Assembly: GCA_023053685.1 (NCBI GenBank)
Contig: JALIGW010000003.1
Coordinates: 44,090,496 to 44,154,495, forward strand
DNA: 64,000 nt
DNA from: Diadophis punctatus similis
Taxonomy: Eukaryota; Chordata; Lepidosauria; Squamata; Dipsadidae
Direction: 5' to 3'
A program made the position numbers and the translations under genes. The notes under the pieces were generated by a model that saw only the letters and a program-made list of their open reading frames with translations, searched no databases and was not told the origin of the DNA. This document shows positions 939 through 44,800 of the stretch, one piece after another. Position 1 is the stretch's first letter; every line of letters begins with the position of its first letter.

Positions 939-23984
<23,046 letters not shown>

Positions 23985-24739
23985 AATTACTTTAGGAGAG
24001 GGGAAGAAAATAAAAAGATTTTGAGGCTAGGTTATTTACATTCTTTATGCTTAATTGAAGGAAAGATTCATACTGAACACACAGAAATGCAATACAATAA
24101 CAAGTAGTAACCCAAACTGGAAGCACATTAGAAAACCATATTGTTACAAAATAATTTCACACACTGGACTTCCTCTTTTTTTTTTAACCGGAGTTATAAA
24201 CAAGACAGAAAGAAATGCAGTATTTATATCACCAAATACTGTTTAGCTCCCTCATTCTTTCTTTTAAAACAACACGCAAAAGATTACTCAAGTTATTGGA
24301 AGTTAAAGGTAGCAAAGGCAGCAGAATTGGTTGCAAAGCTGCCAGTACTTTAAAAACGTTTAAAAAGCAGTTTTAATGAAGTTCCTGTGCCTATGTTCAC
24401 ACCGCCAACATAATTAGCCAATCTGGAACCACCTTCAGTACTCTTTACAAGAAATGATATGCGAGTTGCTTAGAATGCAGCTGAAATCTCTCCTTAGTTC
24501 AAAAGAGTCTTTGAAGGGATATTCAAAAACCACTAACATGTTTTTCTTGATTTGACATCCGAAAAAGTTTCCTGAACTATTGCAGCTGCTACTCAGCAGC
24601 CATCGTTCATATACCGTAGGAATCCTAAAAAAAACCCATCCCTGATCATTTAAATCCCCCCAAATCAAAGTCTTGCGCGTGCCAACCATACTTGGAAATA
24701 AATAAAAGAAGTCGGGTACGCTTTCCTCCTTTAAAAAAA

Positions 24740-28765: not shown

Positions 28766-29983
28766 TGCTGAGGAACGATCTTCGGGCAACCCTCCTCCCC
28801 TTGTCGCGACTCCCTCGCTGGCTGTGGCGCACATGGGGAGACCCTCCTCAAGCAAGCGGCAAGCGCAGCAAAGGCGCACGCAGAGGGCAGGCAGCTGCTC
28901 ACTTAAGGAGGGTCTTTGGACCTTCTCTCCTGCCCTAAGGATATGGCCATCACCTTGCCGTGCCCCCCACACCCCACATGACAGGAGGGGGAGGAGAGTC
29001 ACCATCTTTATTATTAGCAAAAAGAAACACAGATGTTTCACAAATCTAATTGTGATGTATGTCAAGAGATTCTCTGAAAATGTACCAAAATATATGCAAT
29101 GTCCCAAAAGTAAGAAACAGATTTACGCTTAACACCATCTAATAGGCATTCAGCTAGACTCCTGAAAAATGTTGCCCTGCACAATGGACATTAATATGCA
29201 CCTGCACCTAGCAAGCAGTTTGATCACATATATGTCCAATACATTAATCAGAATTAGGTTACTTGTGTTATGTTATGATGGGTATGCAGCACCTACAGCT
29301 TTAACATTAGCAAAGCACTATTCTTGACTGATAATCAAGCCCAATTGATTAGCTCTCCCATTAAGTATAAGTTACTCTTGTCTTAGATGAGAAAACAAGC
29401 CTAAATTCCTATTTGAATGATGGCCCAGAAAGCTGAATATTATCTTGCATTTTTATTTGAATGGTGCCTGAAAATAACACATGTTCTGTTTCTCCTGTCA
29501 TTTCACATTCCATTCAGTATTTCTATCATTGGAACATGTAAAATCATGCCTTTTTTCATGGAACTAGTCTTTAAAGACTCAAGGATATACCATAATTTTT
29601 TTCATTTTTAACAATTTGGAAAATTACAGCCAATTAATTCAAAGTAATTCTTCCACAGATATGCCTGAATGGTTTCTTTATACGGAAGTAGTTCCAATTA
29701 TTTCTGATTCAATTGATTATTCCAATAATTTTATTTAAAATCTGTTCGCTTTTTCTTGAGTGCAACCAGTAGACGCAAACTCTCATAGTAGGCCCATTGT
29801 CTTAAATTAGAAATGTGAAGTATTCTGGTCCTTACTGTCTGTAAAAACTGAGAAGAAGTAATAAATGGTAGAAACATGCATGTCTAATTATAGTATAACT
29901 TTACTTCTGTCCTAACTCGGACAGTACATAATTCAGGTGATGCAATAGACACAGACAAAGAGACAGCAGCTGGGGTTAGAAAT

Positions 29984-30371
29984 CTACATCTGAGCACTAA
30001 GATTTCTTTTGCCATCTTGGCTTCCCATTTGAAATAAATCAGAAAGATCTTGCAGGAGCTGGTGGCCTTTTCCATTCTTAAGATAGTGCAGCAGATTTGC
30101 TTTCGGTATTTTGGTAAAAGGTGTGTCCCTCCCCAGGAGCTCTACCAATGAAGGCTCCATCGTATCAGACATTTCTTCTCCATCCATGGTGTCATAGAGA
30201 TCTGCGAGATCTTGCTCCTTTGAGGTCAGCAGGACATGTGCTTGGGAGAGGTCTCTGCCACTAGCTGTATGCACTCCCCCCAGGGCATTATGGAGCCACA
30301 TGAGTCGCTTTAAACCTTGAAGGGTTCTTCCTCTGTCATTCAGCAACTGGTGTTCTGTCACAGCTCTTTTA
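29984..30371 (-). CDS. PTH4: PTH4 exon with the mature hormone and stop codon
   Basis: Acceptor CATATTTCAG/T. The first base completes Asn, then Lys-Arg, then the mature peptide. The acidic middle (LADLYDTMDGEEMSDTMEP) and the C-terminal region ending DGKRNLSAQM are unlike PTH. A second dibasic KR lies near the end. The stop TAG is at 29,984-29,986. Minus-strand AATAAA at 29,730-29,735 is a possible poly(A) signal. Confidence 0.92.
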
Positions 30372-31195
30372 CTGAAATATGAAAAATCAGTACCTTGAGA
30401 AGCAGAAGCATATTTAGAATGGAAAAATAAAACATTTCCAGTCTCTCTCACTTTCTGCTACAGACTTCTTAACAAAGGAAGATGAAGACTCTGAACACAG
30501 AAGAACACAGCAGTGCATTCTATTGTCATATTACATCCAACTCCTTGCTCAAGCATTTAATACCATTCCAAGAATTTCAAATGGAAATACTATACATTGC
30601 TGTTGATCCTTTAAATTTAGGTTGATAACCTGCCTTGCTTCTATATAATTCAAGGCGGTATACATAATGTTCCCTCCTGCTATCTTCCCCACAATGGCGA
30701 CCCTTTGAAGTGAGCTGGGCTAAGCTGAGAAAGAATGGCTGAAAGAATTAGAAATCCCAGCCTCTTTATACATCAAGTCTAGTTGGGTTTTGAATTCAGA
30801 AGGTTAAATGTAAGCTTTCAATCTGAGTCAAATTGTTCAGCATCAGCACCTGTGATTCACTTCAATGCTCTCCAAATCCTCTTTTGAATTAACAAAATAC
30901 CAGAAGAGTTTTACATTTAGTTTTGCAATTTTCTGGCTACAGGATAACTATGCCTTAAAAAAATGTCAAATGAAAAATAATTTTGAAAAAGATAACATTA
31001 AATTCCTGTTTTAATTTTTTTCTACAATTTTAACTAGTAAAATACCAGTATCATTACATTTTAACAGCTAATTTCACATGCAAGAGGCAAAACAAGACAA
31101 AACACATTACGTAATTCTATATGAAATTCTTACTTTTCTGTTTCTTGACATGTTGCAAAGCAAGCAAGAAAAAAGATTGATATAATTTTTGCCAT
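29984..31195 (-). CDS. PTH4: Parathyroid hormone family precursor, probably PTH4 (PTH-L)
   Basis: Two coding exons (62 + 388 nt) separated by a 762-bp GT-AG intron join in frame to a 149-residue secreted precursor. Residues 1-16 are a signal peptide (MAKIISIFFLACFATC), followed by a very short pro-segment QETEN and the convertase site KR at 22-23. The mature peptide starts AVTEHQLLNDRGRTLQGLKR and then LMWLHNALGGVHTA. Mature Glu4, His5-Gln6-Leu7, Gly12, Arg20, Trp23, Leu24, Val31 and His32 match positions that bind and activate class B PTH receptors. Trp23 is PTH-like, while AVxEHQLL and HTA are PTHrP-like, a mixture described for PTH-L/PTH4. The splice before the K-R pair matches the family's gene structure. 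It lies between STK38 and SRSF3. The symbol is inferred; PTH1 and PTHLH normally lie elsewhere. Confidence 0.9.
30600..30800. repeat. Old SINE/LINE relic in the PTH4 intron
   Basis: AACCTGCCTTGCTTC, AAGGCGGTATACATAATG, CTTCCCCACAATGGCGACCC and GAGCTGGGCTAAGCTGAG match a widespread squamate repeat body. Class unresolved. Confidence 0.45.
31134..31195 (-). CDS. PTH4: PTH4 exon with start codon and signal peptide
   Basis: ATG at 31,195, twenty codons plus AA, then donor GAAAA/GTAAGA. The hydrophobic core IISIFFLACFA makes a signal peptide. The phase fits the next exon exactly. TTTACAG/G at about 31,234 on the minus strand could be the acceptor of an untranslated upstream exon; its partner is not identified. 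Confidence 0.85.
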
Positions 31196-31235
31196 TTGTA
31201 GATGTTTTTCCGACAAGGAAATCTTTTTTCAATCC

Positions 31236-41060: not shown

Positions 41061-41682
41061 CGTGGGAGAGGAGATGGACTGATGGGCTGTTGTGTTTTTT
41101 TTACTGTACTCGCACCCGAGGTGAACAGGGGGCTAGTCAAAGGGAGACGGAGATTGTGAGGAACTCTCGTAGCTTCATCTATTACGGTAAAAGCGGTTTA
41201 AAAAGGGCGCGCCATTTTCTACGTATGGTTTTTCCTTGTGGACGAACACGAGGTTTATTTCACTGGTGTGCTCGTCTGCCTACCTGATGAAAGGATTTCC
41301 CCGAGTATGTGGTGGTATATGTACTTTGCACAGCAGCAATTGGGGAGGGGGAATGTAACAAAAATGGAAAACGTCGCTGCTGGTTACCTTCCTGATTTTC
41401 TATTGAGTTAGCTAATTACCTTCTCCAAATTCAGATCATTTTCGGATTTCAACTTGCATCAGAACAGGTTTCTGACATCAGAACATTTTTTCGATAAATG
41501 TGAACGTTTATGAACTCGGAAGTTGATTGTTCACAACGGTTTTTTTAAAACTTTAGCGTTATCTGTAATAAAGCCGTGTGCGATTTATAAGATTCTCTTG
41601 TTTGATAATCGGTACGTGGATTACCTTCCGCTATAATTGTCGTTTTTGCCCATATTGATTACCATTTTTGCATGAATTTCAG

Positions 41683-41890
41683 AGATGCATCGCGATTCGT
41701 GTCCACTGGATTGCAAGGTTTATGTAGGAAACCTTGGGAACAATGGCAACAAAACTGAATTGGAACGAGCTTTTGGCTACTATGGACCGCTGCGGAGCGT
41801 CTGGGTTGCTCGAAATCCCCCTGGTTTTGCTTTTGTTGAATTTGAAGATCCAAGGGATGCTGCCGATGCAGTGAGAGAACTAGATGGGAG
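41683..41890 (+). CDS. SRSF3: SRSF3 exon 2 (start codon, most of the RRM)
   Basis: Acceptor GAATTTCAG, ATG at 41,685, donor GGGAG/GTAAAC. It encodes [18 protein letters not shown] and on to RELDG plus a split Arg codon. Confidence 0.97.
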
Positions 41891-44800
41891 GTAAACTGCA
41901 TTATGGTTTTCTTGGGAAACCAAGTGAGCATTCTGATTTTTTAAAAATGGAATGAATAATGAAAAAACCCATGTTAAAATGTCCCTTTAAAAGGATTTGA
42001 AGTAAAGGACTTTTTGCAGGGAGTTCTAAGTACTGATCAATGTATGAATTGATTGGGAAGATTTTAATTTGAAAGCAACTCAAAGATACACTTTTTTCAC
42101 AGTTACCATCTATCATTTGGTATTTTGATTTAGCATTTAAAATTTTAAGCATTCTTAATGCTAGGGAATAATGATTCAATCCAACCATATTACTGCCAAT
42201 TATATTTGCATATTAATTTCTTTAAATATTAGCCTTTATACTGAAAACCTAAAAGTGAATAAAAAATAACATTTTGGATTTTTGTACTTGTACTGTTGGC
42301 ATTCTCCAATAATTAAATAGCTTGTATGTGAGCAATAGGACAAAGTGAATAGATTGGCTTGCAATATTCTGTGTTCAGATTATTCTGACCACTGGCTTTG
42401 TTTAAAACATTGGAAAGCATCCCTGTCTCCTAGTATAGGAAACTATGAGCACATGTCCTTAAGTTGTTTGACTTAAATCTATTAATATCAATCATGATCT
42501 TTCCCAGAACATTGTGTGGCTGTCGGGTCAGGGTGGAGCTGTCCAATGGTGAAAAACGCAGTCGGAACCGTGGCCCACCTCCCTCATGGGGTAGACGACC
42601 TCGAGATGACTATCGCAGGAGAAGTCCTCCACCTCGCCGCAGGTATCCAGGATGAAATAACTTTATTAATGATGTTGGCAGTATTACCATTTTGGCAAAA
42701 TAGACTTTTCAAAACCTGCACTATCAAATCACCAAATTCTAAAGCATTAAGCAGATGTTAGAGGTATACACTTTGTTGAGCACTGGCTTCTGTCCTTGGG
42801 TACCTGTACCAGTTGATAGTATCCTCTAACGTGGATTATCATCTTTTCTTCTGAGGTATATTCATCTAGTCACTTCCCTTTTTTGTCCCAGTACTTCAGC
42901 TTTTTTTTTTCTTCATTGTTGATAAACATTACATACAACAGCTTGGATTTTTTTCACTCAGTTTGCTTTTCCTTTAGCACAAGTGATGCTAAGCAGGCAA
43001 CTGTTTTATGGATTCTGAAGCAATGAATAGTTACTCAGCTAAATTTCGACTGTAATAAGTCTGTTGAAATATTATTGCCTCATTTGAATTCTGCAGTTAT
43101 GAATTCCCCAAACAAAAGCAGATTGCTTGGTAATGCATCCTCTGACCTGGATAATTGATGAAGTGTTAAATACTCACTTCAGTACTTAAAACCTGATTTC
43201 TGCAAGGGCTGATCTCAACCTATTGCAGATGAATGAAGTCCATACAAAATAATGAAACCTGTTCCCTTTCACTGTAGAACACATAGGAGTATTTGTTAGC
43301 TGCTAGATGGTTGTACTGATGGCTTGTTTTTCATTTTTTTATGCTTTTTGGTCCATCTATTAATAAAAATGAACCCGTTACAGAGTCACCATCATGTCTC
43401 TTCTCACCACCCTCTGAGTCTGCATTAGCCAGTCAACTAGCCCTTTCAGCGTCATGTGACCAGCGCGCCCCATTCAGCTTGGCTGGTGTCGTTTCACATG
43501 ACCCAGGCATGGCCAGTCGTCAGGTTGCACCGCCCTTTGGTTCCCGAGCATGCTGTTTCTCTCAGCCTTCTCTCCAACCTTAACCAAATCGGCAGCAGCC
43601 ACCTCGACCGCCCACACATTCCCGGCCAATCAGCTCAGCTGTTTATTTACCAAATGTCTTCACAACAACTACAGCAGCAGCCTTCGGCTAACAAAAAAGC
43701 AGGAAAAATCCACAACACCCCCTTCGCCAACCAACTAAATACAACGCAACATCTGGCAAAACCTTTTCAGCAAATTCTTCTTGGCAGTCAGTCCGGCAGC
43801 CTCACCTCACCATTTCTAGCTTGTTGAAACCAAAAACTAGTAAGTTTTTCCTGCTTATACAGTTTACTGCTGGTTAAAATAAGGAGTAAGCGGCTTATAA
43901 GTAATTATTTTTTCTCAATCAAAGGCTGGCTGTGCATAATTTCGTGGTAACATACATATGTTGCTTGAATAAAACTTTTAAGGGTGTTAAGGAATCTAAT
44001 ATAAATAACTAAGCTGCAGTATATTTGCATGTGAGTTGGGCAAACTTAATTGCTAACTTTGGTTTTCCTTGCAAAAAAACTGCCGCCACCTTTCACCTTT
44101 AAATTGTTTTACTAACTATTTCAGAACAATTACTTTATGGGATAAACTGGGCAAGCTAAGGTTCTTTAGACTAAACACACTATGACCTTTTAAAAGTTAC
44201 ATTCACAGATGCAATTCTAATTAGTCATTGTCACTGTGTGCATTAGTCTTTCACTTGGTACTCTGCCTTGCATGGGTTCCAAAACACTAGTTTATACCAA
44301 TTTTGGAACTACTTGTGGGACTTTGATATAGTCTTTTAGGCAGTGGATTTAGTTGAGATGGAAGTGCTGCATTGGAGACAGGTTTGCTATGACATGGTAT
44401 TAGTTAAAACAAACTCATGGCTGGAAACATGCTGATCACGCTGAGTCTTTTTAATGCCTGAATCTTTCCATTTTGCTGGACGATGGGTGCCATTTATCTT
44501 GGCACATTCACTGGGCCCAACAGTGACTTGACAAGTTGGGAATTACCTCACCTCAGTTGTGTTGAGTTGAAGAAAAGACTCACCTTTCTTTTTTGATTGT
44601 AGATCTCCACGGAGGAGGAGTTTTTCCCGTAGTCGTAGCAGGTAAATTGTTGAGGCTGATCATGCATTGCCAAAGTATTTCACACACAGATGTAAAGAAA
44701 CATTCCCTGTGTCATGAAAATGTTTCACAAATTCAGTAAGTCATTCAAACAGACTTACTTTGTAGATCTGGGAATGGGGACTGTAATGCACTAATGGTCC

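Follow-up and report, generated by a model that had tools for sequence, protein, structure and literature searches.

The PTH4 gene and its precursor

The window, by which we mean the whole 64,000-nt stretch of DNA analysed here, is part of contig C217 of a 1.78-Gb snake genome and carries a two-exon PTH4 (PTH-L) gene on its minus strand, between STK38-type exons and SRSF3. Coding exon 1 (31134..31195, minus strand) measures 62 nt, starts with the ATG at 31195 in a moderate context (C at −3, G at +4), encodes the leader and the beginning of the pro-segment (MAKIISIFFLACFATCQETE and two further bases), and ends at the donor AAAA/GTAAGA. A GT-AG intron of 762 nt (30372..31133, minus strand) interrupts the codon immediately preceding KR. 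Coding exon 2 (29984..30371, minus strand) spans 388 nt, follows the acceptor TTTTTCATATTTCAG/TAAAAG, and contains the KR cleavage site, hormone residues 1–34, a C-terminal part, and the stop codon TAG at 29984–29986. The two exons join in phase into a reading frame of 62 + 388 = 450 nt, or 149 codons plus the stop. A candidate polyadenylation signal, recognized by its AATAAA motif, lies 249 nt past the stop (29730..29735, minus strand). Splicing of the transcript is predicted from the splice signals and from a leader homologous to those of the NCBI Ahaetulla and lizard models.

The encoded precursor consists of a hydrophobic leader (nine-residue Kyte-Doolittle means of up to 2.93), a short pro-segment ending in KR at residues 22–23, and the hormone at residues 24–57 (30264..30365, minus strand), which we placed from the exon 2 start at 30371 and the KR site and which coincides with the span of the PDB alignments. 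Cleavage after KR would leave a mature peptide of 126 residues that begins AVTEHQLLNDRGRTLQGLKRLMWLHNALGGVHTA. The exon join, the leader, and the Pfam match described below bear out the preliminary description of an in-phase two-exon gene with a signal peptide, a KR site, and a 34-residue hormone.

This architecture agrees with what is published for the family. A two-exon plan has been described for PTH-L (PMC3009671), and chicken and Xenopus PTH-L resemble the window gene in having two coding exons and in being linked to SRSF3 (PMC3009671, PMC3483286). An intron before KR, expected of PTH4 and present in the window, is described for elephant shark in PMC4354418, with teleosts differing. The short first exon had been called easily missed by annotation, which holds for the Naja naja model (P0003), where intron-side sequence is read in its place, but not for the NCBI models of Ahaetulla, Varanus, Elgaria, and Hemicordylus, which all contain it. 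The NCBI models of Varanus (P0008) and Elgaria (P0007) place seven additional residues ahead of KR, as would result from an acceptor lying 21 nt farther upstream. Related sequence (GTDFSYFS) stands at this position in the window, and use of the upstream AG there would break the frame.

Family membership and closest relatives

The product matches the Pfam Parathyroid family PF01279 with 51.3 bits (E = 2.2e-13; curated cut-off 22). In the PDB, PTHrP chains align to residues 24–57 with E = 2.1e-6, and PTH chains match much more weakly (E = 0.021 to 0.53). The best protein match, P0001 from the snake Ahaetulla prasina, named "parathyroid hormone 4-like" by NCBI, is 93% identical over all 149 residues (E = 3.8e-86) and differs from the window by 10 substitutions. 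Because of the PF01279 score, the PTHrP matches, and this full-length homologue, the resemblance is not due to chance.

Of 110 candidates in the protein search, 84 had E values no higher than 10. Besides P0001, many of these bear the name PTH4-like or PTH4 and come from lizards, birds, lungfish, and axolotl; the remaining names are parathyroid hormone, parathyroid hormone-related, hypothetical, and apolipoprotein A-II-like, and several matches are nameless. The Naja protein is 90% identical over 87% of the query, and the four lizards Varanus komodoensis, Elgaria multicarinata, Hemicordylus capensis, and Anolis carolinensis reach 64–67%. The Ahaetulla and Naja matches narrow the squamate source suggested beforehand to a snake. 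The PTH4-like proteins of Ahaetulla, Varanus, Elgaria, and Hemicordylus, together with that of Anolis (UniRef G1KSU8, there named Parathyroid hormone), have the same leader end, KR site, and hormone as the window, including Asn at hormone position 9.

Six unnamed Logan proteins were considered as cDNA evidence. In P0002, P0004, and P0006 the frame continues through intron-side residues before KR, which identifies them as genomic and not as transcripts, and they were rejected; P0005, P0013, and P0014 were set aside, as their initial residues do not match the leader.

The window gene is thus an intact snake orthologue of PTH4, a small hormone gene related to calcium and bone that is known from fish, frogs, birds, and lizards and is already annotated automatically in several squamates. 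What is new is the change at position 9, a change of start codon, and a gap in the literature on squamate PTH4: our literature searches found no work on snake or lizard PTH4, and the tree description in PMC3483286 names lizard PTH, PTHrP, and TIP39, with no lizard PTH-L named there.

Neighbouring genes and linkage

PTH4 is flanked by minus-strand exons of an NDR-family kinase gene (3257..24026) and by plus-strand SRSF3 (41676..44642), the latter identified by the SRSF3 chain 9asq_H with 259.9 bits. The kinase exons were recognized by characteristic motifs and by exon 15544–15675, which matches NDR kinases in the PDB (human NDR peptide 1psb, 43.8 bits; STK38L, 34.6 bits; yeast CBK1, equally 43.8 bits). 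Its first coding exon (23853–24026), which we take to be that of STK38, has no Pfam match. Judging from this single PDB comparison, the gene is probably STK38 and not its paralogue STK38L. The exon motifs and PDB matches support STK38 and SRSF3 as the neighbours named beforehand.

Linkage to SRSF3 is what is expected of a PTH4 gene. According to PMC3009671, PTH-L neighbours SFRS3 (SRSF3) in Xenopus and, in chicken, on chromosome 26, but not in Takifugu, and human chromosome 6 has the flanking genes without PTH-L. Short motifs of CDKN1A, sought near SRSF3 across the window and its flanks (20 kb on the right, 10 kb on the left), gave no match, which is not evidence of absence.

The region also contains remnants of mobile elements. 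A Tc1/mariner-type transposase fragment (11783–12187, plus strand; DDE_3, 41.3 bits) lies inside the STK38 gene region, a LINE-like frame at 18540–18833 (plus strand) matches ALKBH8_N with 33.1 bits and RVT_1 below threshold, and a second LINE-like frame at 16249–16857 (minus strand), which by eye resembles the remnant of a reverse-transcriptase element, matched no Pfam family. Repeats at the PTH4 gene itself amount to weak pairs, and neither a tRNA scan nor an Rfam scan of the window produced a match.

Relationship to PTH and PTHLH

A profile search of the genome with PF01279, in which the best candidates were scored, revealed three loci: the window, L001 on contig C313, and L003 on contig C1. 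L001 is PTHLH and L003 is PTH, each on the minus strand of its own contig and each in agreement with its best named relatives; for all three genes, the closest named proteins come from snakes. The PTH4 product shares with mammalian PTHrP the AVxEHQLL start, the HTA motif, and the Pfam family, whereas PTHLH proteins differ from it by Phe23 in place of Trp23, a different tail, and the separate locus. Phe23 is present in 98 of 99 PTHLH rows (Tyr in one). PTH resembles the window gene in Trp23, the two-exon plan, and the KR site, but differs at positions 5 and 13 and in the tail, and occupies its own locus.

We calculated a tree of 58 rows and 82 columns, consisting of 19 of the 84 matches from the PTH4 search, 15 of 25 from the PTH search, 21 of 109 from the PTHLH search, the window, L001, and L003. 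The rows, mostly named, were picked by hand for spread, and neither TIP39 nor teleost PTH4 was among them. PTH forms a clade with support 100/99 that excludes the window, PTH4 including the window has 94/89 (not starred), and PTHLH has 90/74. Twenty PTH4 rows, the window among them, fall on one side of the 94/89 branch, and L001 and L003 fall in the PTHLH and PTH clades.

That the gene might be a second copy of PTHLH or PTH would fit the mammalian PTHrP-like AVxEHQLL and HTA motifs and the choice of PTHrP as the best PDB match. A tree against PTH and PTHLH had been proposed as a check on this point: the best tree keeps the window in PTH4, and the AU test on the same 82 columns rejects at the 0.05 level neither the placement with PTHLH (p = 0.106) nor that with PTH (p = 0.058), which we read as weak power over a long-branch attachment, given so few columns. 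Yet the snake has its own PTHLH and PTH elsewhere, grouping with named rows of each, and the product is 93% identical to an Ahaetulla PTH4-like protein and linked to SRSF3, so that a second copy is very improbable. Full-length identity and linkage are stronger evidence of orthology than the tree and the AU test. Together, the Ahaetulla match, the tree, and the SRSF3 linkage uphold the PTH4 identity assigned at the outset.

Conservation of the hormone and loss of the ancestral start codon

Segment conservation was computed on 23 of the 84 matches. Within hormone residues 1–34, the window is identical to Varanus, Elgaria, Hemicordylus, Phrynocephalus, Anolis, and the gecko Sphaerodactylus at 30–31 of 34 positions, and in the remainder of the mature protein at 43–54 of the 87–92 positions compared. 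Five birds share 26–28 of 34 hormone residues and 29–35 of 90–91 in the rest, lungfish 26 of 34 and 21 of 92, and axolotl 29 of 34 and 21 of 70. Compared with the rows of the six squamates listed above, the 1–34 segments of this snake are identical at 30–31 (PTH4), 29–31 (PTH), and 25–29 (PTHLH) of 34 positions, the agamid row being a mix of Phrynocephalus and Pogona. Position counts were made on rows with a full 1–34 segment (79 of 84 for PTH4, 23 of 25 for PTH, and 99 of 109 for PTHLH). His5, Arg20, Trp23, Leu24, His32, and Ala34 are invariant in all 79 PTH4 rows, and the window has all six.

Hormone position 9 is Asn in 11 of the 79 rows (P0001–P0011), comprising Ahaetulla, Naja, Elgaria, Varanus, Hemicordylus, Phrynocephalus, Anolis, and four unnamed rows, and hence seven of the eight named squamates. 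His9 is found in 67 rows, including that of the gecko Sphaerodactylus, and Gln9 in the turtle P0016. The MHD motif at residues 8–10 is said in PMC4354418 to be present in all PTH-L investigated there. Bird PTH4 rows share the KR site, His5, and Trp23 with the window, and the five compared above have MHD at this position, where the window reads LND. Because the Asn9 rows still group with PTH4, we treat MHD as not defining PTH4 across squamates.

The start codon has also changed. In most of the named precursors from lizards, birds, lungfish, and axolotl, translation starts nine codons upstream of the window ATG, with MLLSQRYLQ or similar followed by M; the gecko begins five codons upstream. In the window, the nine in-frame codons (31196..31222, minus strand) encode ISLSEKHLQ, and ATT occupies the ancestral start position. 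Translation should therefore begin at the next Met, nine codons downstream of the start in Varanus, Elgaria, Hemicordylus, and Anolis, and the NCBI Ahaetulla model starts at this same Met.

These observations bear on whether the gene still works. Tetrapod PTH-L has been proposed in PMC3009671 to be potentially non-functional, having lost its function in this group, and a PTH4 frame that was recently inherited intact but is no longer expressed or functional would be in line with the lost start codon, the change at position 9, and the poorly conserved tail. We consider such decay improbable. Substitutions avoid residues 1–34, the lost start is followed by an in-frame Met and an intact hydrophobic leader, a start that the Ahaetulla model shares, and the frames of the retrieved snake and lizard relatives are open, with no break in any, though a protein search cannot return broken copies. 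At the protein level, and with that same limit on retrieval, a hormone part kept to this degree is the pattern to be expected if a working hormone were under selection, and it counts against the suggestion of non-functional tetrapod PTH-L.

Proposed function and receptors

We propose, with a probability of about 0.86, that the window contains a functional PTH4 gene of an advanced snake, encoding a secreted hormone that is most likely a PTH1R agonist. The transcript would be spliced from the two coding exons, the leader would be removed upon secretion, and a furin-type protease would cut after KR to release the 126-residue peptide. Its N-terminal helix (residues 1–34) would be presented to PTH receptors, most likely activating PTH1R and raising cAMP, and a role in calcium and phosphate balance or in the skeleton may follow. 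Chicken PTH-L(1–34) is reported to act at chicken PTH1R with an EC50 of 7.7 nM, and chicken PTH-L to be weak at PTH3R and on intracellular calcium (PMC3483286). An AlphaFold model of Ahaetulla P0001, calculated with 18 relatives, predicts that the hormone region is helical (mean pLDDT of 71 for the block of residues 31–40 and 83 for 41–50), with moderate confidence; the precursor as a whole is modelled poorly (mean pLDDT 53.2, pTM 0.21), and the part beyond the hormone is not confident. Points that count against the proposal are the genomic origin of the Logan proteins P0002, P0004, and P0006, the unstarred PTH4 branch, the AU test, the poor model of the precursor, the weak chicken activities just mentioned, and the departure of Asn9 from the His9 of most PTH4 rows.

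The preliminary description of a brain-expressed bone regulator originates from zebrafish, where Pth4 is expressed in the hypothalamus (PMC5645135); chicken PTH-L transcripts are reported as most abundant in cartilage (PMC3009671) and those of Xenopus as present in brain, lung, and bone (PMC4354418). Zebrafish Pth4 is linked to the window gene by name and by published ohnology, and its hypothalamic, bone, and phosphate role is described in PMC5645135 and PMC5640766. Teleost pth-l is reported to have no KR site (PMC4354418), and no teleost PTH4 rows were among the protein matches retrieved. Transferring the zebrafish role to snake PTH4 would require expression data.

A genome search for the hormone-receptor domain, with 150 of 272 first-look candidates scored, identified 17 exons, three of which (L010, L012, and L015) carry YIYDFNH. 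The best PDB match of L012 is PTH2R (123.2 bits versus 102.8 for PTH1R), whereas L010 (66.8 versus 55.0 bits) and L015 (55.5 versus 47.9 bits) match PTH1R better than PTH2R. Seen as exon pieces, L010 and L015 seem to belong to two separate PTH1R-type genes, of which one is presumably PTH3R, and the genome seems to keep PTH2R plus two PTH1R-type receptors. Three receptors are also listed for Anolis in the table of PMC3483286, where birds are reported to have lost PTH2R and TIP39, and placental mammals to be without PTH3R and PTH-L. Exons of PTH4, PTH, PTHLH, PTH2R, and two PTH1R-type receptors thus coexist in this snake genome. Set against the bird and placental losses, this repertoire therefore makes squamates a useful amniote group for testing the role of PTH4 on land.

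The presence of a PTH2R exon invites a different view of receptor preference, in which squamate PTH4 would chiefly bind PTH2R as an antagonist, or act on a PTH3R-type receptor, in place of PTH1R agonism. The hormone combines the Trp23 of the PTH2R ligands PTH and TIP39 with the His5 of PTHrP, and, judging from work on human receptors, this pair might mean PTH2R binding without activation. PTHrP is reported to gain activity at PTH2R by His5 to Ile plus Phe23 to Trp (PMC2991341), and PTH4 has only half of that pair; the paper also names the Trp/Phe difference as the main discriminator, in which case Trp23 might be enough for agonism. The His5/Trp23 pair occurs in all 79 PTH4 rows, many of them from birds, which are reported to be without PTH2R, human-receptor rules may not carry over, and the chicken hormone activates PTH1R but is weak at PTH3R (PMC3483286). 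We therefore regard this view as unlikely and retain PTH1R agonism as the preferred reading.

The PTHLH gene of this snake (L001) begins TVAEYQFLHDKGKSVQDNRRR. Squamate PTHLH has Tyr5 and nearly always Thr1, compared with His5 and Ala1 in most other rows. Tyr5 occurs in 26 of 99 PTHLH rows (P0110–P0135), 25 with Thr1 and one with Ser1, and the 24 named ones are all squamates. His5 is thus lost from squamate PTHrP and kept in PTH4. As a long shot, the PTH ligands of squamates may have traded parts, PTHrP losing Ala1 and His5 while PTH4 kept both and changed His9 to Asn outside geckos; PTH4 could then replace part of PTHrP-type signalling, or, through His5 with Trp23, serve as a natural antagonist of PTH2R, a receptor that these amniotes still possess. 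In the tuatara, PTHLH (P0136) keeps Ala1 and His5.
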